Both the position numbers and the translations under genes were made by a program. Shown here piece after piece: positions 7,516-51,342 of a stretch of 64,000 nt of DNA (its first letter is position 1; the number at the start of each line of letters is the position of its first letter). The notes under the pieces are model-generated. The model ran no database searches and had not been told where the DNA came from. It saw only the letters and a list, made by a program, of their open reading frames with translations. The DNA is from a virus, in the IMG/VR virus record IMGVR_UViG_3300021171_000004, positions 1 through 64,000 of that record, one strand, 5' to 3'.

Positions 7516-7941
7516 ATGCTCGTACTAGTCCCGTACGCTGATTTTATTGCTGTTGGTGGTGCCGCTGTCGCGGTTATTGCTCTGATTCACAGTCTAGCCA
7601 AGAAAGCCGGACCTGCGGGCGCTACTGGGCCGCAGGGGAAGCAAGGAATTCCCGGAGTCCAAGGTCCGATTGGCCCGCAGGGGCCAGCAGGAGTGGCCGG
7701 GGCGAAGGGCGACAAAGGCGATTCTGTGAAGGGTGCGGATGGGGCACCGGGTCGAGATGGGAAAGACGGGGCGTCTGTAAAAGGTGACAAGGGTGATAAA
7801 GGCGATAAAGGCGATTCTGTCAAAGGCGATAAGGGTGACTCCGTGAAGGGCGACAAAGGGGATAAAGGTGATTCCGTTGTCGGGCCCAAGGGTGATAAGG
7901 GAGACAAAGGCGATAAAGGGGACAAGGGCGATCACGCTTAA
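7516..7941 (+). CDS. Membrane-anchored collagen-like protein
   Basis: 141 aa. Residues 8-27 form a hydrophobic N-terminal anchor; from about residue 32 to the end the protein is Gly-X-Y repeats ([13 protein letters not shown], then [12 protein letters not shown]). Collagen-like stretches form trimeric rods and in phages usually occur in fibres or surface proteins; here the membrane anchor suggests display on the infected cell. The repeated GDKGDS units make the DNA internally repetitive. Confidence 0.85.
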
Positions 7942-30441: not shown

Positions 30442-30691
30442 CCCAATCTTAAAAGACATTCTAGACAAAGCTACGGCTGGCCTCGGAAAAAAGAAAAGGC
30501 CGAAGCACGGGATGCGTAGCACGCACATAGACCATTTGGATGATGGTTCGCACGTTGGACGAATCCAACCGCACGAAGGCGATGAGATGAGTTTTTCCGC
30601 CAAAAACGAAGGCGAACTAGCCAGCAAGATTAAAGAATATCTGGGCGACAAAGAAGCGCCAGTTGCTCCCGAGGGGGCCGAGAAGGTGTGA
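30434..30691 (+). CDS. Unknown protein, 85 aa
   Basis: Helical, Lys- and His-rich with KKKRPKHGMRSTHIDHLDDG. Overlaps the next GTG (GTGA). Near the terminase but too unlike known small terminases to call. Confidence 0.55.
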   Translation: MDSPILKDILDKATAGLGKKKRPKHGMRSTHIDHLDDGSHVGRIQPHEGDEMSFSAKNEGELASKIKEYLGDKEAPVAPEGAEKV

Positions 30692-31188
30692 CAAACTCAG
30701 AACGGGTTCGTAAATACGCGCTAAAACGGATCGAACAGGGTTTATGTATTCGGTGTGGAAAAGAGCCTGCTATTCCGGGGATACAGATCGGTTTAAAATG
30801 TAAACCCATCGAAAAAGATAGAAACAGGCGGTATATTGAAAATCGTCTCGCCGCAGGGATTTGCCGAGTTTGTTGCAAGAATAAAATTTCTCCTCCCAGA
30901 AAAACACGATGTGATGAGTGCTCCCTTCGTCATCGGCTCGCCGCTATGGGTCTTAGTCCCGAAGAACAGCAACGGACAACAGAGTACTTTTTGCACTTTT
31001 TCAGGGGAAGGTGTGAGTCCTGTGGAACAACCGATCCAGGCAAAAAAGATTGGTGTGTAGACCACGACCACAAAACCGGAAGATTCCGGGGGATTCTGTG
31101 TAATCGTTGCAACGTGGCACTAGGGATGGTGAGAGATAATCCCACAGTTCTTCTCGCGTTGGTTCAATATCTATCCCAGAAAGCGTGA
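30688..31188 (+). CDS. Recombination endonuclease VII-like (HNH) protein
   Basis: 166 aa. N-terminal CIRCGKEP and CRVCCKNK zinc knuckles; C-terminal CESCG, then CVDHDHKTGRFRGILCNRCN and ALGMVRDNP, the endonuclease VII signature. Inserted between the 85-aa gene and the terminase with GTGA overlaps on both sides. Likely a free-standing homing endonuclease. Confidence 0.85.
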   Translation: MTNSERVRKYALKRIEQGLCIRCGKEPAIPGIQIGLKCKPIEKDRNRRYIENRLAAGICRVCCKNKISPPRKTRCDECSLRHRLAAMGLSPEEQQRTTEYFLHFFRGRCESCGTTDPGKKDWCVDHDHKTGRFRGILCNRCNVALGMVRDNPTVLLALVQYLSQKA

Positions 31189-33032: not shown

Positions 33033-35576
33033 ATGGCTGAGATTACGCCGCTTCAATTAATTGTACCCGATACATATGTAGGGCCGCTTCTGCAAGCTGC
33101 GGTGAATCAAGCCTTTTTAACTCCGAAGGCCGCAGTTTGGATCCCGGCAAACTACGCTGGGACGGACACGTACACGAACCCTAATAATGTGCCCGTGTTC
33201 GATATGCGTTCGGGTGGTTCTACTAGTTTTACGTCTAATACAACATTTTCAACGATTGCTGGGGGAACGAATACTTCTGCTGCGCTAGTGGTCGGAACTG
33301 GTGCATCCCTGACGGCAACAGGAACAGGTTCTATTATTTCAACCGCCGTAGCAAACTCTCCTACACCAAGTAGTGCTTACACTTTCACGAGTACACCAAT
33401 TACAACGGCACCGTTTAGCGGGAATCTGCTGGTAGGAGCGAATATCAATGCTGCTGGCACAGGTTCATACACAGCCGGGTCTGGTTATGCCTTAATAGGA
33501 ACACCAACAGCCACCTTAGCGTTGGAATATCAGACGGCTGCCGCTGCGACAAGCTATTCTTCGACATTCACTTACTCGGTCAGTTCTGGCAATTGGGGTG
33601 GGACCATCGCAGCGTTTTCTTCGCCGGGAAACAATGCCGCTCTCGTTCAAGGGAAAGTGCAATCCGCTTCAACGTCACTAGCTTATACCAGTAACAACGG
33701 TGCTGGGAATCTGCTGATTGCAGTTTTCAGGTATAACGGGGCAAGTGCCGCCCCCATTGCGTCAATCTCCGATACAGCAGGAAATACCTGGGTTTCTGCG
33801 GGCGCTCGCGCCTTTCAGGGGTATGCCAAAGGCGTGTCTGACTCCAATTTTCTGGAAGTTTGGTATGCCATGAATAGTATTGCCGGTGCAAACACCGTCA
33901 CTGCGACGATGGGTTCAGGTACCACTGGCGGTGCAACTCATATGGGGATTGCAGAGTTCTCTGGTGTAGCCACAACTAATGCGCTCGTAGATTATAACTT
34001 CACCGGTTCAACGACTGGGGCCACAAGCATCCCAGGCGCAACGACAAACCCCCAGTACACGATTAACGCCACCAATAATACTACTGGTGTAGTTGACTTT
34101 ACAGGTCGGGACTCCGGTGCAGTTGTCCGCAGCGCATTCAACGCAAGAGCCGGAACAGGCGGCTTATTCTACTTCAAAAATGGTATCTATCCTGGGCAGA
34201 CTTCGCTACATGAAAGCGTGGCAGGGCAGACGGCCATCTGGTATGTATGGGGGATACCCGCGCCTGTGTTGGGAACCCAAGAGGTTTCATTTCATATTGT
34301 GTGCGAGAGTTTTACTCAGACTCTTTATGCCACGCTGCAAACAGATGGTTGTATCCACCAAATCTTGCCCTCCGCGTATGCAGGGCCCCAACCATTATCA
34401 AATAACACATTATCCGGATTCTGGCAGCGTCCTAATGCTACCTTTGGGGCCATCAACAACAACGCAATATTTTTTGTAAATGGCACCGTTCGCATTCCCG
34501 ACAATCAGCATACACCGTCCAATTCCTTCGATACCTTTACAGCTATATACTCATCTCACATCAACACAGTTGCCGATACGGTTATCACCGCAGTAGACCA
34601 ATTGTGTTCGGGGCTGGCTGTCGGGCTGTCGGGCGTCAATGGTTATCGCACAAATCAATCGGGGACAGATGAGACGTACTTCGAGAACACCTACGCTGTT
34701 GGCTTCAATACTCCGTACAACGTCCTGTCGAATCACCCCATCGGAAATAATATGCACGCAGCCTGCAATCAAAACGCAGGAACGTTCAGCATTTCAACAT
34801 CAATGTATGGTGGGATGTTAAACCATTTTGGAGATTACCACAATCTAAATGGTTTTGTGTTTGGATGCGCCCAAACAGGGACGCGCTGGGACTTGCAGAA
34901 CATGGCTCAGGAATTTGCAATCACTGGAACTTTTGCGCGGGCAGGGAACGCCACAGAAACAACTCCTGGCAACTGCATGGGGAAAGTGAGCGTAAGTTCA
35001 GGCTCTGCGAATAATGTGTCTTTCACGCCCGGTTCATTTTTCGCATCTGGTAACGGCGCTAATTTCCAAGTCACTGAATCAACCCGGCTCATACAGCCAG
35101 GGTTGCTCACTTCTAATTTCACTTCGGCTGCGACTACAGGGACGACCAAGCAAACGTTGGCGACATACACGTTTACATACAATGCTGGTGGGGGAGGCCA
35201 GGGGAGCAACATCGGCCCGTTCCAAAACAACCCTGGTGCGGTTTTCAGGATAAAAGCGTGGGGTATCGCTGCAAACAATGTTAACAGCAAAGTGTTTGAA
35301 CTTGATTTTGGTGGCACTCTTATCGCTAGTATCACCGCCACTCCGAGCGTCGCAGATTCCGTCAAATGCGAAGCAGAAATAATTGTTAGCTCCGTTGCGA
35401 ACACGCAGGAGGTCATAGGCTATTGTGACGATGGAACAGCACGAACGGTAACACGCTCTGCTCCCGCAATTACAGGTAATGCAAATATAATTTTGAATGC
35501 TGCCGCAACTACAGCCGGGGCCGCAGGCGATTTCACCTTCAAGGGGATGACGATTGAATACGTTGGTGGCAACTAA
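33033..35576 (+). CDS. Large beta-rich tail fibre/head-fibre-type protein
   Basis: 847 aa, starting at the terminase stop (TAAATG). Residues 210-330 carry the DTAGNTWVSAG-type lectin-like module shared with the secreted proteins at 5034 and 36428; the following half is compositionally fibre-like with many Ala/Thr/Asn and a His/Asn-rich C-terminal part. Probably a host-recognition or decorative fibre. Confidence 0.65.
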   Translation: MAEITPLQLIVPDTYVGPLLQAAVNQAFLTPKAAVWIPANYAGTDTYTNPNNVPVFDMRSGGSTSFTSNTTFSTIAGGTNTSAALVVGTGASLTATGTGSIISTAVANSPTPSSAYTFTSTPITTAPFSGNLLVGANINAAGTGSYTAGSGYALIGTPTATLALEYQTAAAATSYSSTFTYSVSSGNWGGTIAAFSSPGNNAALVQGKVQSASTSLAYTSNNGAGNLLIAVFRYNGASAAPIASISDTAGNTWVSAGARAFQGYAKGVSDSNFLEVWYAMNSIAGANTVTATMGSGTTGGATHMGIAEFSGVATTNALVDYNFTGSTTGATSIPGATTNPQYTINATNNTTGVVDFTGRDSGAVVRSAFNARAGTGGLFYFKNGIYPGQTSLHESVAGQTAIWYVWGIPAPVLGTQEVSFHIVCESFTQTLYATLQTDGCIHQILPSAYAGPQPLSNNTLSGFWQRPNATFGAINNNAIFFVNGTVRIPDNQHTPSNSFDTFTAIYSSHINTVADTVITAVDQLCSGLAVGLSGVNGYRTNQSGTDETYFENTYAVGFNTPYNVLSNHPIGNNMHAACNQNAGTFSISTSMYGGMLNHFGDYHNLNGFVFGCAQTGTRWDLQNMAQEFAITGTFARAGNATETTPGNCMGKVSVSSGSANNVSFTPGSFFASGNGANFQVTESTRLIQPGLLTSNFTSAATTGTTKQTLATYTFTYNAGGGGQGSNIGPFQNNPGAVFRIKAWGIAANNVNSKVFELDFGGTLIASITATPSVADSVKCEAEIIVSSVANTQEVIGYCDDGTARTVTRSAPAITGNANIILNAAATTAGAAGDFTFKGMTIEYVGGN

Positions 35577-35624
35577 AAGTAAAAAGTTTTTCTCTTCATT
35601 AGGAGAGAGAGAAGGAGAAGTAAA

Positions 35625-35909
35625 TTGGCTCAACTCAGAATGTACGTGAACAAAGGTTGTCCGCATTGTGAACAAGCAAAGGCTTTTTTTGACGCCCAGA
35701 ACGTAATAGTGGAAGTTGTTGAAATTGGGTTCGATCCCGTTCTGCAAGCCGGGCTAAGGTCGCTGTTCAACGGCGGCAATTTCCAGGTTCCGCTTATCGT
35801 TTCGTTCGCAACCCAAGAGGTGGTTCTAGGTAATGATCCAGTTCAACTCCAGCGTATTATTGCTGCTCTTGTCCCTAGCACAAAGCCATCTGACTCTGCT
35901 TCTCAGTAA
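35625..35909 (+). CDS. Glutaredoxin-like protein
   Basis: 94 aa. CPHC at residues 12-15 in a glutaredoxin fold, with a central VPLIVSF (cis-Pro) and a C-terminal helix. TTG start after GAAGGAGAAG. Would reduce disulfides, for example of ribonucleotide reductase. Phage glutaredoxins usually serve nucleotide synthesis, but no reductase gene is in the window. Confidence 0.8.
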   Translation: MAQLRMYVNKGCPHCEQAKAFFDAQNVIVEVVEIGFDPVLQAGLRSLFNGGNFQVPLIVSFATQEVVLGNDPVQLQRIIAALVPSTKPSDSASQ

Positions 35910-36207
35910 CGGGAAGATTTTCGACCCGATTTTTGATGTACATTTTTGGTGGAAGACCGCAAAATCAGATTGGCTGAGAGAGTTGCGGTCATGCCCCGTG
36001 TGTCTGGGATTCTGGACTGCCGCCATCGTTTCTTTACTCGCGGGAATCCACAATCCATGGCAAATTCTAGTTGTGGCCGGAACTGGACACGTACTATACC
36101 TGCTTCGCGAAAAATACCTGCCCTGTGATAAATGCAAGGTTCCGGAACCGATCCCATTTAAATTTGTAGGACATCAAGCGGTGGGTGTGGAACCTGCTCC
36201 TAAGTAG
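35833..36207 (+). CDS. DUF1360-like membrane protein
   Basis: 124 aa. CPVCLGFWTAAIVSLLAG matches the CPxCxGFW plus membrane-span pattern of DUF1360 phage proteins; a second Cys pair (CDKC) follows. Overlaps the glutaredoxin gene by 77 bp. A C-terminal location in a head-to-portal cluster is typical, role unknown. Confidence 0.65.
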   Translation: MIQFNSSVLLLLLSLAQSHLTLLLSNGKIFDPIFDVHFWWKTAKSDWLRELRSCPVCLGFWTAAIVSLLAGIHNPWQILVVAGTGHVLYLLREKYLPCDKCKVPEPIPFKFVGHQAVGVEPAPK

Positions 36208-36234
36208 CTCTCCGTCAGCAGGTGTCGCGGAGCC

Positions 36235-36420
36235 TTACAATTCTGAACCATGTTCGGCTGTGGGATCGAGAATGCAGGCGGCGTACTCTGTCGAATCGGG
36301 TACCGCAATTCCTCCATAGGAATCGGTAATCTGGTACATCCAACCGTCAGGACAGCGGCCAACATACTCAAGTTCCCTAGTGAACGTAGGCTCAGGATTT
36401 TGGTTATCAGGTGACATCAC
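36235..36420 (-). CDS. Unknown protein, 61 aa
   Basis: Follows the secreted protein gene on the minus strand after AGGGGGG. Begins MMSPDNQNPEPTFTREL; three Cys or acidic patches but no motif. Probably a small partner of the secreted protein. Confidence 0.5.
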   Translation of the reverse strand: MMSPDNQNPEPTFTRELEYVGRCPDGWMYQITDSYGGIAVPDSTEYAACILDPTAEHGSEL

Positions 36421-36427
36421 CCCCCTT

Positions 36428-37183
36428 TCATTGCTTTTTGTAAGCTGCTATGCCCGCCAGCCAGTGGCCTCCTCCGCTTTCCGAACCATCTGCGTTGCGG
36501 CCCATCCAAGAACCAATGTAGACGCCCGTGGTTGGTGCAATCATGTCCTCAGCGAAAACACATGTGGCCTTCCCCTCAAGCGTGTATCCCGGGCCAGATC
36601 GCACAACACCCCCGCTATTGGGCGGGCAGCTTTCCCCCCAAGCTAATATGAGCGCGCCTGCTTCGGTGTCTATTGGTAGTGTCCAAGCGTAAGGGCAATC
36701 ACCACCGTTGGTGCAATCCGGAAAGACAGAGTTCTGGTCCGCGTACGTGCCTAAATTACCCGCGTCGAAATTCCAGTTCCCGTCGTAAATAAGGATAAGC
36801 ACATCCGAAAACTGATCGCCTGAGAACGACAGTTGAACCCCGGTTGTACACGACACACCGACCCCGCAAAAGGAGCCGAAATTGGTGTGATACGAACAAT
36901 TGCCCGTGAAGGTCACGCACTGGTCCCGGGTCCAAACATCGCCCCGGCTGTCAGTTATTGTTCCCTGCGAACTGAATCTTGCGATGACTACTGCCATCGT
37001 GTTCGGTGGAGTCAGGAAGTAGCAGCCTGCTTGGGCAGAGCAAGCTACTGTCGTACGGATTGGCAGAGACAAAAATGACGAACGCGACCGTACCGGAGCG
37101 AGAAAACAAATTCCAGCGAAAAGTAAAGCACTAACAAAAAGTGCTTGGCCTATCGAAATGAAAACAGCGCGTAAATTTTTCAT
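36428..37183 (-). CDS. Secreted Cys-rich beta protein with signal peptide
   Basis: 251 aa. Hydrophobic signal-like N-terminus (residues 8-30), then a beta domain with eight or more Cys likely to form disulfides, and a lectin-like module related to the proteins at 5034, 33033 and 58520 (TPPNTMAVVIARF, TDSRGDVW). Encoded against the virion genes from its own strong promoter, so expressed separately. Likely exported to the host envelope. Confidence 0.65.
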   Translation of the reverse strand: MKNLRAVFISIGQALFVSALLFAGICFLAPVRSRSSFLSLPIRTTVACSAQAGCYFLTPPNTMAVVIARFSSQGTITDSRGDVWTRDQCVTFTGNCSYHTNFGSFCGVGVSCTTGVQLSFSGDQFSDVLILIYDGNWNFDAGNLGTYADQNSVFPDCTNGGDCPYAWTLPIDTEAGALILAWGESCPPNSGGVVRSGPGYTLEGKATCVFAEDMIAPTTGVYIGSWMGRNADGSESGGGHWLAGIAAYKKQ

Positions 37184-37223
37184 ATTTTCCTCCCTAGTTT
37201 TTCAAGCCCATGCTTGTTCGACA

Positions 37224-37253
37224 AATATACCACGGTGAAAAGATTTTTGTCAA
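37224..37253 (-). promoter_or_regulatory. Strong promoter of the secreted Cys-rich gene
   Basis: TTGACA (37253-37248), 18-bp spacer, TATATT (37229-37224); AGGGAGGA precedes the ATG. Confidence 0.75.
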
Positions 37254-37260
37254 CTACTAA

Positions 37261-37353
37261 ATGAGAATAACTCCGGACGAAGCAAATCCTCAAGGCCAGA
37301 TAAACCCAGACGATTTCAAAAGTGCTGCGGAAGTAGCGGGATGGTATGTATAA
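37261..37353 (+). pseudogene. Duplicated portal 5' fragment (30 codons)
   Basis: Encodes MRITPDEANPQGQINPDDF and about 11 more residues before a stop; the true portal starts MARIEPDAANPQGQIDPKDF. The DNA is diverged but clearly homologous, with mostly synonymous differences. It ends inside the start of the endonuclease gene. Reads as a remnant left when the endonuclease gene entered from a related phage. Confidence 0.8.
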
Positions 37354-37738
37354 GGACCGAAAATCTCCGGAAGTTAAGGCCAAAGAGAAAGCTAGGACTC
37401 TGCGGTGGATAAAAAGTAATCCAGAGAAGTATCGACGGGTTACGAAGAACCGAAATTTGAAAAAGAGTTTCGGTATCACACTAGAGGATTACGAACGGAT
37501 GCACGCAGATCAAAACGGTCTGTGTGCTATTTGCCAGAAACCAGAAAAATATAAAAGTGCGAATCCCCAAAGTTTAGGGCAACTACTGAGTCTAGCTGTA
37601 GACCACGATCATAATAGGAATCATGTTCGCGCTTTGCTGTGCATGGCCTGCAACAAAGGGTTAGGGTGTTTTGAAGAAGATATACTCCGTTTACAAGCTG
37701 CGATTGAATATATCAAGAAACATGCGGGAGAAAATTGA
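37346..37738 (+). CDS. Recombination endonuclease VII-like protein
   Basis: 130 aa. CAICQKPEKY, LAVDHDHNRNHVRALLCMAC and NKGLGCFEEDI form the endonuclease VII zinc/HNH core, with a basic N-terminus. Sits between the portal fragment and the intact portal, overlapping both reading frames at the ends. Typical of a homing endonuclease next to its target gene. Confidence 0.85.
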   Translation: MYKDRKSPEVKAKEKARTLRWIKSNPEKYRRVTKNRNLKKSFGITLEDYERMHADQNGLCAICQKPEKYKSANPQSLGQLLSLAVDHDHNRNHVRALLCMACNKGLGCFEEDILRLQAAIEYIKKHAGEN

Positions 37739-39861
37739 TGGCTAGGATAGAACCAGATGCCGCAAACCCGCAAGGTCAAATTGACCCAAAAGATTTTATA
37801 AGTGCTTCCGAAGTTACTAAAGCGGGCGCGTTGCAGTTGGTTTGTCAGGATGCGCAATCCAGTGAGGCTTGGTTAACTCAAAACTACTGGAATATCAGAT
37901 GGCGTGAGGCGGATGCGCTGTATCAATCCCCGCCTTCGGTTCTCATGTGGGAAAATACCACAACGCCGCGTTCAAATGTAAATCGCTTCGTAGTTGCGGA
38001 AACTGTGAATGCAATTCACCCGCAAATCATGAACGGGCTATTTTATGAGCAGCCGCCATTCGTTCTGCGTCCGCGCCCGGTAATTACCCAGAACACTTCC
38101 CGGGCGATTTCCACGGTTATTGCACAGGAATTGGATGAAATAAACTTTCGGCAGGAAACCGATTGGGGGCTTTTTTCCTCGCTCAACTTCGGCACAGGTA
38201 TTTGGAAATGGGGTTTTAAAACCTACCCGAAGAAAACCACGAAGTACGTTCCGGTAGGAAACACCGTTTCGGTGGCGGCTCCCCTCCCGAATGCTCCGGC
38301 CACGATTCTCGAAACACCAGAATCCCTGATGTACAAGCGGGTAGTCGGTGAAGAAGATGTTCACACACCGACTTTCGAAAACAAAGATATCCGTTATGTT
38401 TTGCCTGATCCGGCGCTCAAAGTCCCGGATATCCGCAAGGGCAAGTTTGTAATCGACAAGATGTATCTCACGTACAAGGACCTGATTAAACTAGCGTCCG
38501 AAGAGTACGTGGATGAGGATCCAAAAACCGGAAAGCAAACGCTAAAGAAGCGCTACGATCTTCCGAGCGAAGCAGAAATCAAAGAGTGGTTTACTAAACC
38601 CAAAGAATTGCCTGCGGCTGGGGCGGCGGGCGAGTCCATGTCTCCGCAGGGCACGGCTTATATCCATCACGCCAAGCCTGCCTTTCAACCTTCGACCGCG
38701 GATCCACTAGACGAACCTCTAGAAGTTTTGGAGCGCTGGGACAACGATAAAGTCATCACGGTTTTAAATCGTGTAAAAGTCATACGAAACGAGCCGAACG
38801 AATTTGGAGTTATCCCTTTCCTCTCGCTTAATTGGTGGAATATTCCTGATGCTTTTTGGGGTCTCGGTCTTGGGCGCGTCATTGGTGTCGAACAAAGAGT
38901 TCAAGCGGGCCTCATTAACGCCTGTCTTGATTTGGCATCCCTTATCGTTAATCCGATGTTCGTTCGGGCTCGTGGCGCGAATATTAACGAGCAGCAGATA
39001 CGTCAACGAATTGGTGGAATCATCGCAGTTGACGGGGACACGCAAAAAGCCCTAACTCTACTCGAACAGCCGAGTATTCCCGCCGAAGTCGTGCAGCAAA
39101 TTGCTTTGTCGCAATCCCGAGTTGCAACCACGTCCGGAGCGGACCAGCAACTTACCATGGGTGTGAACACGGGTAAGGGCGGGGCCATGCGCACAGGCAC
39201 GGGCGCTGCGGGTATGATTCAGGCAACCATGAATCGTATCGGCGGTTTTGCCGAAGCTTTCGTGCGTCAAGTCTACGAACCCTTTATCTACACAGTTCAC
39301 AAACTGAACAAAGAGAAGATGCCGATTTCCTATATTCGGAAACTTCTCGGGGATAAGCTGGGCAAGGACTTCAAGTTCGACGCGAACGAGTTTTTGAACG
39401 CGCCCGCTGAGTTCGAAGTTCTGGCTGGTTCGCACTTAGCCGCAAAATCCCAGATGGCGCAGTCGCTGTTCATGATGCTCCAGCTTTTTGAGAATGCTCC
39501 TTTGATGCAGCAACTGAACGAAATCAATCTCAAGAAGGTGAACATAGAAGAATTGTTCCACATGGTGCATGACATCTCCGGGTGGAAGAATTACTACGAC
39601 ATCATCCAAGACATGACGCCCGAAGAAATCCAAAGGCAGCAAGCGAAGTCGCAAGGTGCCCAGATGCAGGCCAAGTTGCAGGGTCAGATGGCCATGGAAG
39701 ATAAGAAGTTCCAGAATAACCAGCAACTCATAGACCAGGAGAATGAAGGCCGAGCCGCACGGGATATTTTCCGCGTGATTGCGGAGAAGTCTGCGGAGCC
39801 AGAAGCACTACTTGGAGCAGAAGCCCCGTCCGCAGGAGTAGGAAGTTCTGAACAAGGATAA
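37738..39861 (+). CDS. Portal protein, podovirus type
   Basis: 707 aa from ATG 37738, which overlaps the endonuclease TGA. Helical protein with ERWDNDKVITVLNRV, LGLGRVIGVEQRVQAGLIN and a Gln-rich helical C-terminus (EIQRQQAKSQGAQMQAKLQ) characteristic of P22/N4-like portals. Forms the dodecameric ring at the packaging vertex. Followed at short distance by scaffold and capsid genes. Confidence 0.85.
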   Translation: MARIEPDAANPQGQIDPKDFISASEVTKAGALQLVCQDAQSSEAWLTQNYWNIRWREADALYQSPPSVLMWENTTTPRSNVNRFVVAETVNAIHPQIMNGLFYEQPPFVLRPRPVITQNTSRAISTVIAQELDEINFRQETDWGLFSSLNFGTGIWKWGFKTYPKKTTKYVPVGNTVSVAAPLPNAPATILETPESLMYKRVVGEEDVHTPTFENKDIRYVLPDPALKVPDIRKGKFVIDKMYLTYKDLIKLASEEYVDEDPKTGKQTLKKRYDLPSEAEIKEWFTKPKELPAAGAAGESMSPQGTAYIHHAKPAFQPSTADPLDEPLEVLERWDNDKVITVLNRVKVIRNEPNEFGVIPFLSLNWWNIPDAFWGLGLGRVIGVEQRVQAGLINACLDLASLIVNPMFVRARGANINEQQIRQRIGGIIAVDGDTQKALTLLEQPSIPAEVVQQIALSQSRVATTSGADQQLTMGVNTGKGGAMRTGTGAAGMIQATMNRIGGFAEAFVRQVYEPFIYTVHKLNKEKMPISYIRKLLGDKLGKDFKFDANEFLNAPAEFEVLAGSHLAAKSQMAQSLFMMLQLFENAPLMQQLNEINLKKVNIEELFHMVHDISGWKNYYDIIQDMTPEEIQRQQAKSQGAQMQAKLQGQMAMEDKKFQNNQQLIDQENEGRAARDIFRVIAEKSAEPEALLGAEAPSAGVGSSEQG
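39295..39309. promoter_or_regulatory. Degenerate palindrome in the portal gene
   Basis: GTTCAC-AAA-CTGAAC, one mismatch in the right arm. Not counted among the 17; may be chance. Confidence 0.35.
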
Positions 39862-41922: not shown

Positions 41923-42945
41923 ATGGCCGGATACAATCCAGCTAGCAACACTACTTCCAACCTGCCTCAGTCTCGCGTTATCTACTACGATAAACGCTTC
42001 ATTGAGAACCTGAAGGCTCAAACTCCGTTCGTCCGTTGCGCAGAACGGCGCGAACTTCCGCTCAACAGTGGAAACCAGCTTGAGCTTTTCATGTACAATA
42101 CGTTCGGTGCAAACACCGCGCAGGTTTCGGAAGGCACGGTGCCCACGGGCATCTCCGCTTCGGTCGGGACTACGACCGCCACAATTGGGGAGTACGCAGA
42201 TTACGCGAACTTCTCTTCTCTTTCACTTGCCACCGCAATCGATCCAGTCGTCGAAAACGTTGGCCGCGAACTTTCTTACCGCCTTGGACAATCCTTGTCC
42301 GCAATTACCCGTGCAGTTGCTGACGGCGCAAACAGCGTCGATAGCTCTGTAAAGGTCACGATTGCTGGTGGTACGTCACTCGCGCTCGCAAACATCCGCG
42401 CTCAGGTCCAGTCTTTGGCTGGCCGCGCGGTTCAACCTTTCAACGAAGCAGAAGCTCTGATGGCGGGTGTGATCCACCCATTTGCCGTTGGCGACCTTCT
42501 GAACGATTCTTCGAATAACTCCGCAATCGACGTTCTCAAGCACACCGTGCCTGGATTGCAGCGCATGGACGACCTGGTTTCTATCGACTTGGCCGACACA
42601 CTTGAGTTCCCGGCTTCCGGTGTCGCATTCTTCCAGTCCAACTTGGTTACGCTGACGACCGCGTATCAGGGTTCGGCGGCTGGGGTGGTGGCATACCGCA
42701 CGTACATTTTCGGGAAAGACGGGGTCATAGCGATCAGATTAGGTGGTCGCGGAGATAATGCCATTGAAGATGGCAACTGGAGAAATATTGAGTGCAACAT
42801 CGTCCAAAACGCTCCATTAAGCGTTGCGGATCCGAGCGGCCTCATCCCGGGTTGGACTTCGTATCGTGTTCACTACACAGCGAGCCTTCCTCCGGACACA
42901 ACCATGCGTTTGCGCACGATTGACGCAACGAGTGCCATCTCCTAA
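41923..42945 (+). CDS. Major capsid protein
   Basis: 340 aa. HK97-fold-like composition and length, with N-terminal TPFVRCAERRELP and a C-terminal region RVHYTASLPPDTTMRLRTI. Position after portal and scaffold and the strong terminator after it support high-level expression. Resembles N4/P22-type coat proteins only in general. Confidence 0.8.
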   Translation: MAGYNPASNTTSNLPQSRVIYYDKRFIENLKAQTPFVRCAERRELPLNSGNQLELFMYNTFGANTAQVSEGTVPTGISASVGTTTATIGEYADYANFSSLSLATAIDPVVENVGRELSYRLGQSLSAITRAVADGANSVDSSVKVTIAGGTSLALANIRAQVQSLAGRAVQPFNEAEALMAGVIHPFAVGDLLNDSSNNSAIDVLKHTVPGLQRMDDLVSIDLADTLEFPASGVAFFQSNLVTLTTAYQGSAAGVVAYRTYIFGKDGVIAIRLGGRGDNAIEDGNWRNIECNIVQNAPLSVADPSGLIPGWTSYRVHYTASLPPDTTMRLRTIDATSAIS

Positions 42946-43049: not shown

Positions 43050-43772
43050 GTGCCAAATTGTATTTATTGTGGAACTACAATTCCCCCCGATGTGGGTTTG
43101 CGTTGCGTGAAATGTAATACGCCCGCCAAACCCAAAAAAGGTTTTCAATATTCCGACCAAGACTACGATAAAGAGTTTGCGTATGATCTGGATACGGTCG
43201 AGCCCCGAGTTTCAAAAATTTTAGAACAGACTGAGACGCGGGAAATGTCGAAGTCTTCGCAGCAAGCCAAAGAGGAATATCACCGCCTGTACGAACAGAA
43301 CGTCGAGTCCCGGAAAGAATACCGCTGGGAAAATCAGGCCGAACTTCAACAAAAACGCGAAGGCCGAATTATTCACATGAACGAATTCATGCGCCTGCTA
43401 CGGCAAGCCCTGCCTGTAGGCTACTCCGCTTGGTTCACCGAAAAAGGCGGCATGGCTAATACTCTCGGACTTTATGTAGGTCATCCTGGACTTTTATCCG
43501 GTTGTACACATTTGAACGGCGAACCGCATTACGTTGGATTCGTACAAGTCCCGTGGATGCAGGAGTTCGAGGAATTACATTTTGACCGATACAACGTCCC
43601 GCTCGGATCCAAACGCCGCGGCTGGCGAACCATCCTATTGAAACTAATCGAGTCCAAGATTCTGACTGAATCCAAGGCTCATGAAGTTTTCGGAGCACCA
43701 CTTGAAAATGCAATGGCCCGTCGTTACAGGCATTATTTGCACTTTCTGAGAAATAAAGGAAAACAGGCATGA
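43050..43772 (+). CDS. Zinc-ribbon protein with helical body, 240 aa
   Basis: N-terminal CIYCGTTIPPDVGLRCVKC is a four-Cys zinc ribbon; a charged helical segment follows, and the C-terminal half is globular with GLYVGHPGLLSG. GTG start after AAGGAGCC. Known phage counterparts have no function. Confidence 0.65.
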   Translation: MPNCIYCGTTIPPDVGLRCVKCNTPAKPKKGFQYSDQDYDKEFAYDLDTVEPRVSKILEQTETREMSKSSQQAKEEYHRLYEQNVESRKEYRWENQAELQQKREGRIIHMNEFMRLLRQALPVGYSAWFTEKGGMANTLGLYVGHPGLLSGCTHLNGEPHYVGFVQVPWMQEFEELHFDRYNVPLGSKRRGWRTILLKLIESKILTESKAHEVFGAPLENAMARRYRHYLHFLRNKGKQA

Positions 43773-44185
43773 TGGTTTGTTCTTTATGTCGCAAACAACC
43801 AAGGCATAGTAAAAGTTGGTGTTTGGAATGTACTCAGAAAAAAGCGAAACAATACCAAACTACCTACCGTAAAAAACACCCTCAGTCCCACCGGGTGGAA
43901 CGTCTTAGAAAAAGCCATCTCACTCTTTCTGAATACGAAATTCTAAAGCAACATCAGAATTCCCGATGCGCTTTGTGCAGAAAGGAATACCCTATTTTTG
44001 ATATCGACCACGACCACGGACATTGTCCGTATGCTAGGGCGTGCAAGGAGTGTATTCGAGGCTTACTCTGCCGTCTGTGCAATCGATATCACCTTCCGTG
44101 GTTGGAGAAAAATCTCCATCTACAAAGCGAATTTGTTAAGAATTACCTGAAATCAAGGCCATTCTTAGAACAGTTAGCCGCCTAA
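43769..44185 (+). CDS. Endonuclease VII-like protein, 138 aa
   Basis: N-terminal CSLCRKQP and C-terminal CALCRKEYPIFDIDHDHGHC with a second CRLCN; the DHDH signature is intact. ATGATG overlap with the previous gene. Third endonuclease VII-like gene in the head region. Confidence 0.8.
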   Translation: MMVCSLCRKQPRHSKSWCLECTQKKAKQYQTTYRKKHPQSHRVERLRKSHLTLSEYEILKQHQNSRCALCRKEYPIFDIDHDHGHCPYARACKECIRGLLCRLCNRYHLPWLEKNLHLQSEFVKNYLKSRPFLEQLAA

Positions 44186-50429: not shown

Positions 50430-50794
50430 GCACTATTTTAACCAGCACCCAAAAAACTCTCCAGAGCGCCGAAAACCTTATTCCTTTGCCCGCTACAGGC
50501 CCAACCGCTCAGGTTTTTTCGCAAGGCGATTCCGTAACACAACTTCAGACCGTAACCAGTTCGGTGATTCAAACTTCGAATTCCGTTTCCGTCACGGACG
50601 GCACCACAGCGGATTCCACGGCTACCTACATTGGCTCGAACGGCGGAACGCCGATGTTTGCGATAAAAAATCCGAACGGAACCGCGCCACCGAATCTGAA
50701 TAATCCCTTAGCCGCGCCCGCAATTCCCGGATTGACGCCGCAGGGTTTCAACGATAACGGAACGATTTCACAGGGGTTAATTGGGAAACTATGA
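50423..50794 (+). CDS. Small Thr/Asn/Pro-rich protein, 123 aa
   Basis: Low-complexity beta-type protein with an internal MFAIKNPNG like the NPG tails of other small proteins. Its 5' end contains the -35 box of the opposing promoter. ATGA overlap with the next gene. Confidence 0.55.
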   Translation: MSSTILTSTQKTLQSAENLIPLPATGPTAQVFSQGDSVTQLQTVTSSVIQTSNSVSVTDGTTADSTATYIGSNGGTPMFAIKNPNGTAPPNLNNPLAAPAIPGLTPQGFNDNGTISQGLIGKL

Positions 50795-51342
50795 GGGGTG
50801 TACAAACGGATTTAACAGGGCAAACCTTCGGGTATTTAATCGCTATTTCGTTTGTTGGTAGAACATCTAAGGGAACAGCAAAGTGGTTGTGTCGTTGTGT
50901 ATGTGGAAAAGAAACCGTTGTACAAAACCCAAACCTTAGGTCAGGAAGCACCAAAAGTTGTGGATGTAAACGAGAAGAATTGCGCATAAACAGAAAAAGA
51001 CCCCTGCCTTTAGGTGAAGGTGCGAAACGGGCGATTCTCTCTAAGTATAAAAAGTGGGCACGACACAGAAACCATTCGTGGGAACTATCTGACGACCTGT
51101 TTTTTGGCCTCACTCAAAAGAATTGTTTCTACTGTGGGGACCCTCCTTCCAAACAGTATCTCGCGAGGCACTATGGCGCGTTTATCTACAATGGTGTAGA
51201 TCGCTGCGACAACACAAAAGGATACACTCCAAATAATTGCGTTTCTTGTTGTAATACCTGCAATCTCGCCAAACGAAAGCTATCTATAAAAGATTTTATT
51301 CAGCACATCAGAAAAATAGCCAAATATACAGAAAGCCTATGA
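50791..51342 (+). CDS. HNH endonuclease, 183 aa
   Basis: DLTGQTFGYLIAI, CRCVCGKETVVQ and SGSTKSCGC form the N-terminal DNA-binding zinc module common in phage HNH genes; CFYCGDPP, YNGVDRCDNTKGYTPNNC and CNTCNLAKR form the HNH core. ATGA overlaps with both neighbours. Free-standing homing-type enzyme. Confidence 0.85.
   Translation: MRGVQTDLTGQTFGYLIAISFVGRTSKGTAKWLCRCVCGKETVVQNPNLRSGSTKSCGCKREELRINRKRPLPLGEGAKRAILSKYKKWARHRNHSWELSDDLFFGLTQKNCFYCGDPPSKQYLARHYGAFIYNGVDRCDNTKGYTPNNCVSCCNTCNLAKRKLSIKDFIQHIRKIAKYTESL

Follow-up and report, generated by a model that had tools for sequence, protein, structure and literature searches.

The beginning of the portal gene is present twice in the genome of a soil-type phage (virus record of 95,523 bases; the stretch analysed, its first 64,000 nucleotides, is called the window). 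A truncated copy precedes an endonuclease VII-type gene, which in turn precedes the complete portal gene. We hold with moderate confidence that this locus is a recombination joint between a phage lacking the endonuclease and another one bearing it, probably provoked by homing, and that the endonuclease brought with it a substitute start for the portal gene.

A truncated portal start beside an endonuclease gene

An earlier note on this DNA had described a diverged duplicate of the portal 5' end beside an endonuclease, and the duplicate was recovered at its coordinates by each comparison made. When the truncated copy (the stub) was aligned without gaps to the portal start, 51 of 72 nt were identical; the best rival match on the + strand elsewhere in the window reached 36 of 72 nt and the maximum obtained with 200 mononucleotide shuffles of 1.5 kb of upstream DNA was 37 nt. 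A tblastn search of the portal N-terminus against the whole window also returned the stub (E 2e-8, 75% identity over 24 aa). The duplication is not due to chance. Antiparallel and repeat-protein matches aside, the stub is the strongest start-of-gene duplicate of the window, within which no further convincing gene-end stub was found, and exact-pattern searches for more copies of the stub gave nothing beyond the known loci.

The stub, the endonuclease gene and the portal gene stand in succession, with stop and start codons overlapping at both junctions (Table 1). The earlier note had let all 30 codons of the stub repeat the portal start. This is true of codons 1-25 and not of the last five (AGWYV), which are non-portal sequence: the portal homology ceases at about 37334-37337, after GAAGTAGC (37330-37337), and the coordinates are corrected accordingly. 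Upstream, the endonuclease frame is closed by an in-frame TAG at 37334-37336. A second IMG/VR viral contig, L009, is identical to the window here at 7706 of 7707 bases and has the same arrangement, which therefore is not an assembly error of one contig, unless both contigs stem from the same reads.

Table 1. Features of the portal locus (window coordinates)
Feature	Position	Strand	Remarks
Small conserved gene (phrog_781)	35833..36207	+	immediately upstream of the portal (L003) or of the endonuclease (L002)
Reverse-strand ORF (cargo gene)	36428..37183	-	251 aa; just upstream of the stub
Truncated portal 5' end (stub)	37261..37353	+	30 codons + TAA; encodes MRITPDEANPQGQINPDDFKSAAEVAGWYV and stop; codons 1-25 (to ~37335) homologous to portal codons 2-26; TAA within the endonuclease gene start, stop/start overlap ATGTATAA
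Proposed recombination joint, portal-type DNA / endonuclease 5' end	37335..37346	+	GAAGTAGC / GGGATGGTATG
Endonuclease VII-type gene (DHHRN motif)	37346..37738	+	130 aa
GGGAG ribosome-binding-like sequence in the last endonuclease codons, with TGATG stop/start overlap with the portal	37722..37740	+	
Complete portal gene, SU10-type	37738..39861	+	707 aa; PF23899 SU10_portal, E 7e-25

A strong sigma-70-like promoter (37253-37224) lies on the strand of the cargo gene itself, which encodes a protein with a secretion-type N-terminus and no Pfam or PHROG match. It lies beside the portal in the window alone; its sole relative, in L057 (72%), does not adjoin a portal, and the gene was for this reason rejected as a marker of the recipient. 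The small conserved gene likely marks the ancestral left flank, judging from the gene order of relatives. The whole interval between terminase and portal (33033-36207 in the window; L001-L007) differs in gene content in almost every relative and appears as a cargo region with glutaredoxin-like and tail-like genes. The conservation of the capsid gene in the group is unusually high, the major head protein (41923-42945 in the window) being ~96% identical across relatives whose portals are 72-79% identical.

Divergence of the two portal starts

The 21 differences within the 72 nt were split 4, 3 and 14 over codon positions 1, 2 and 3 (chi-square p 0.005 against an even spread), and the description of the DNA changes as mostly synonymous thus holds. 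Identity at third positions between the stub and the window portal was 40%, equal to that of portals of different phages in the group. By the codon-position split and this level of divergence, the two starts grew apart while each served a functional portal gene in its own lineage, and came together only afterwards, which favours a joining by recombination over a recent tandem duplication that decayed. They also agree with the suggestion of the earlier note that DNA from a related phage is involved, as the two starts differ as much as the starts of different phages.

An old tandem duplication of the portal start in a single lineage, split by the endonuclease and diverging since, is very unlikely. 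Decay should scatter changes over the codon positions, and 14 of 21 lie at the third; the copies are no closer to each other than portal starts of different phages; and the stub, like the portal of L004, starts with MRITPD and lacks the Ala2 of the window portal. Such a duplication is favoured by Pro17 and Ser-Ala22-23, which are common to both copies and occur together in no other close relative, and by a pattern including Pro17 that matches this phage alone in 2.9 million viral contigs. We count these shared residues as a small point against a joining between lineages.

The stub is 68% identical in nucleotides to the window portal and 69% to its nearest sequences, in L001 and L004, and the window portal start is nearest to that of L002 (76%), the relatives being too distant for an assignment; because only 25 codons are available, no donor can be named for the stub. 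The nearest portal relative is 79-80% identical, neither parent phage being among those sequenced, and at this distance the direction of the event and the length of the tract cannot be read. A contig scan of bacterial genomes for donor or recipient found no portal relative. In the nearest named phage, Tunturiibacter phage Tunturi_3, with 37% identity in the portal and 65% in the major head protein, the terminase adjoins the portal and no endonuclease is present. The first 26 codons of the portal show a locally raised similarity to L002, with a rank of 31 to 43 among the 697 windows compared; as the mark of a co-conversion tract this is suggestive only, and its weakness counts against the recombination joint.

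The endonuclease and its distribution

The product of the window gene matches PF02945 (E 3e-20, residues 36-125 of 130) and F-CphI of S-PM2 (38% identity over residues 14-126, E 3e-15), a characterised free-standing homing enzyme as described in the available text of PMC6083498, and the homing-type assignment of the earlier note is upheld. By the definition in that text, the DHHRN family has the residues D, H, H, R and N with flanking CX2-4C and CX2C zinc pairs. In the window enzyme the catalytic D86, H87, H89, R95 and N103 and the CxxC pairs C60/C63 and C99/C102 are intact, all these residues are invariant in alignments with relatives, and the motif sits in the C-terminal half, as in the endonuclease clade. 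From these features, we predict an enzyme of the homing type belonging to the F-CphI family. The gene is intergenic, patchy at one site and outside any intron or intein, as is typical of free-standing homing genes. A group I intron carrying a homing gene was ruled out by the absence of intron core RNA: there was no Rfam match in 36800-38400, one chance hit lying far below the gathering score.

It is quite unlikely that the enzyme instead resolves Holliday junctions or is one of the nucleases of the terminase-portal region that serve packaging, with a stub that came from ordinary mosaic recombination. The name of PF02945 derives from the resolvase, and HNH nucleases between terminase and portal serve packaging elsewhere (HrdP, PMC12724721). 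However, the protein aligns only weakly with T4 endonuclease VII (E 0.12, residues 47-110, against 3e-15 for F-CphI) and its motif is C-terminal, on which grounds the T4 resolvase type was rejected; the gene occurs at this place in just 3 of 17 relatives, and its absence from 14 of 17 does not accord with the conservation across the group expected of an HrdP-type HNH packaging nuclease, which was rejected in turn. The phage also carries three more endonuclease VII-type genes (30688-31188 and 43769-44185 in the window; 68212-68349 in the record, G000).

The first of these, at 30688, overlaps the start of the large terminase (GTG at 31185), flush as at the portal, and no stub of the terminase start was found upstream of it within the window. 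Two other genes may encode nucleases: that of an HNH protein (PF01844, 20444-21088) and the ORF 50791-51342, which is HNH-like by eye, has no Pfam match and runs into the following gene, whose start is at 51339.

The comparison set comprised 17 distinct portals of at least 44% identity, window included. An endonuclease VII gene lies flush at the portal start in three of them, the window, L002 and L035, and its stop overlaps the portal ATG in each (TGATG, TGATG and TAATG, respectively). In the window and L002, the stop/start junction DNA is nearly alike and the last endonuclease codons (KKHAGEN) contain GGGAG or GGGGGAG, in position to act as a ribosome-binding site for the portal. Endonuclease-free relatives carrying the stub, named by the earlier note as evidence that would speak against an insertion, were looked for and not found: the 14 relatives without the endonuclease have one intact portal start each and no stub, and the stub is likewise absent from L002 and L035. 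In L003, the endonuclease-free site consists of the same small upstream gene, 9 nt and the portal.

The endonuclease is patchy on the portal tree, where L035 falls outside a supported clade of the window, L002 and endonuclease-less relatives. Endonuclease identities are 56% between the window and L002 and 65% between L002 and L035, out of step with portal identities of 79% and 71%. The tree placement and these identities imply repeated gain at the same site, or recurrent loss and exchange, and the window endonuclease has had a history apart from that of the portal. The endonuclease VII frame of L035 (2594-3001) has no early ATG, GTG or TTG after the preceding stop, and may be unexpressed, truncated or served by a rare start.

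In ordinary intronless homing, homology on either side of the break guides its repair from the donor copy, and no stub is left. L002 and L035 look like products of this process. The window locus has a seamless right side and a left joint placed within portal coding sequence, where no homology is visible. Of the 12 annotated endonuclease VII genes sampled in named phages (L062-L081), 11 overlap the next start or end no more than 4 nt from it, and no gene-start stub stands beside an endonuclease VII gene at any of 16 other loci (the ends of the unannotated L071 and L077 being guessed). The flush right junction is the rule and the left stub the exception; homing therefore does not normally leave one, a count of none in 16 that we also set against the recombination joint. 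The gene following an endonuclease VII gene in named phages is often essential (terminase, DNA polymerase or tape measure).

The earlier note had read the locus as an insertion with co-conversion of flanking DNA. The part concerning between-lineage DNA at the endonuclease stands, and plain co-conversion does not, as L002 and L035 have the endonuclease and no stub; the stub would rather record one irregular, non-homologous left joint.

The gene order of L002 (glutaredoxin, small gene, 5 nt, endonuclease, portal) makes a different history a serious alternative and the main rival, which we nonetheless consider rather unlikely: the endonuclease would have been in place already, as it is in L002, and the stub would have come later, DNA with the reverse-strand cargo gene and a foreign portal start having been inserted between the small gene and the endonuclease and trimming the 5' end of the latter, with no homing involved. 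The extra DNA of the window, 36208-37345, holds the cargo gene and the stub, and the C-terminus of the small gene is altered in the window. The likeness of window and L002 upstream, where the glutaredoxin genes are 79% identical, fits a resident endonuclease with later insertion of the stub equally well, and is counted against the recombination joint. In addition, the N-terminal CxxC zinc ribbon of L002 and five other aligned relatives is missing from the window endonuclease. Forms without the ribbon nevertheless occur naturally, in the short endonucleases of the L015-L026 group, and because of these a truncation at the joint is only possible. Further points against a resident endonuclease are the lack of a portal beside the only relative of the cargo gene (L057) and the identity of the window and L002 endonucleases, which at 56% against 79% for the portals makes vertical inheritance doubtful.

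The stub may also have a function, as a short leader, kept by selection, whose translation would adjust the endonuclease level through the overlap ATGTATAA; we regard this as unlikely, and it is compatible with a recombination joint. Overlapping starts are thought to express several T4 homing endonucleases (available text of PMC2988022). Against a leader, the stub has no clear ribosome-binding site in front of it, relatives that also bear the endonuclease manage without a stub, and its presence in one phage only allows no comparison of conservation.

A model for the joint and its precedents

Our preferred account, the recombination joint, would have arisen as follows. One parent had no endonuclease and a portal beginning MRITPDEANPQGQ...; in the other, a free-standing homing gene of the endonuclease VII type directly abutted that parent's own portal start. 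On the right, the two would have been joined through homologous sequence of the portal or beyond. On the left, no homology would have been involved: the portal of the first parent would have been interrupted near codon 25 and continued by the 5' end of the endonuclease gene. The endonuclease would thus have arrived with a substitute ribosome-binding site and portal start, and an intact portal would still be made from 37738. The other start would persist upstream as a 25-codon stub, whose initiation signals may feed the endonuclease through the stop/start overlap. What set off the event was most likely cleavage of the endonuclease-free allele by the enzyme of the window, that is, intronless homing; family and position make it likely that this enzyme made the break. 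A break in, or an illegitimate joining at, an endonuclease-free portal start, with an endonuclease-bearing partner, is the most economical account.

The claim that the stub marks the homing target found no support. The free-standing enzymes of T4 cut hundreds or thousands of bases away (available text of PMC2988022), and the joint at codon 25 alone is therefore no mark of the target.

The closest structural precedent found was that of the endonuclease gene hybrids of fungal mitochondria (Allomyces atp6; Glomus atp6, atp9, cox2 and nad3), of which the present locus is by analogy a mirror image, at the 5' rather than the 3' gene end. In these hybrids, the 3' end of a gene is replaced by one that a mobile endonuclease ORF carries with it, and the native end, which has diverged from the replacement, is retained beyond the ORF (PMC3630166). 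As in the hybrids, an endonuclease is present at one end of an essential gene in the window, for which it would have supplied a foreign substitute end, and a diverged duplicate of that end, the mark of a mobile-ORF hybrid, lies beyond the endonuclease. The two differ in that the fungal duplication concerns the 3' end, with the native end downstream as proven by a close relative (PMC3630166), whereas the window has a phage gene duplicated at its 5' end, with the stub upstream and no close relative to tell the native copy.

As a 5'-end counterpart of the fungal hybrids, phage endonuclease VII homing genes could move as a unit with a replacement gene start, comprising the ribosome-binding site, the start codon and the first codons of an essential gene, and settle without an intron inside its coding sequence, displacing the native start. 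We put this forward very tentatively, as a doubtful extension of the recombination joint.

The window gene resembles the T4-type free-standing homing endonucleases, among them F-CphI, its homologue with the same catalytic residues, in lying between genes beside an essential gene and in its patchy occurrence; unlike the window, the available text of PMC2988022 and PMC6083498 describes no displaced gene start, and the activity of the window enzyme is a predicted one. It has no intron partner. Co-conversion of flanking DNA around free-standing phage homing endonucleases is described in the available text of PMC2988022, as are transposition-like insertions that split phage genes (Aeh1 mobE in nrdA, T4 mobA in gene 60). 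The latter share with the window a homing gene joined within the coding sequence of an essential gene; in the window, however, the essential gene has not been split up, and the portal after the endonuclease is complete. Homing genes also sit at the borders of genetic exchange between phages (Barth et al. 2023, PMC10448857). In those cases, as here, a nuclease gene beside a structural gene borders DNA of different ancestry, whereas one border in the window is a visible non-homologous joint with a truncated gene. A term search of that paper for endonuclease VII types found none, and no account of a displaced 5' stub next to the homing gene of a phage turned up in a small literature search.

Combined, these results describe a single example, which we read as the scar of a recombination between two related phages, probably driven by the enzyme: a tidy variant of something known. 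Two unlike portal starts in one genome indicate that the joint arose between lineages, and the ribosome-binding site that the endonuclease contains as a substitute shows how the portal could remain expressed. For annotators, the locus is a warning, the 30-codon ORF being a portal stub and no gene of its own. It is a readable scar of the way endonuclease genes settle at essential structural genes and, should it be true that the unit moves as such, phages would have an intron-free route for these genes into coding sequence.
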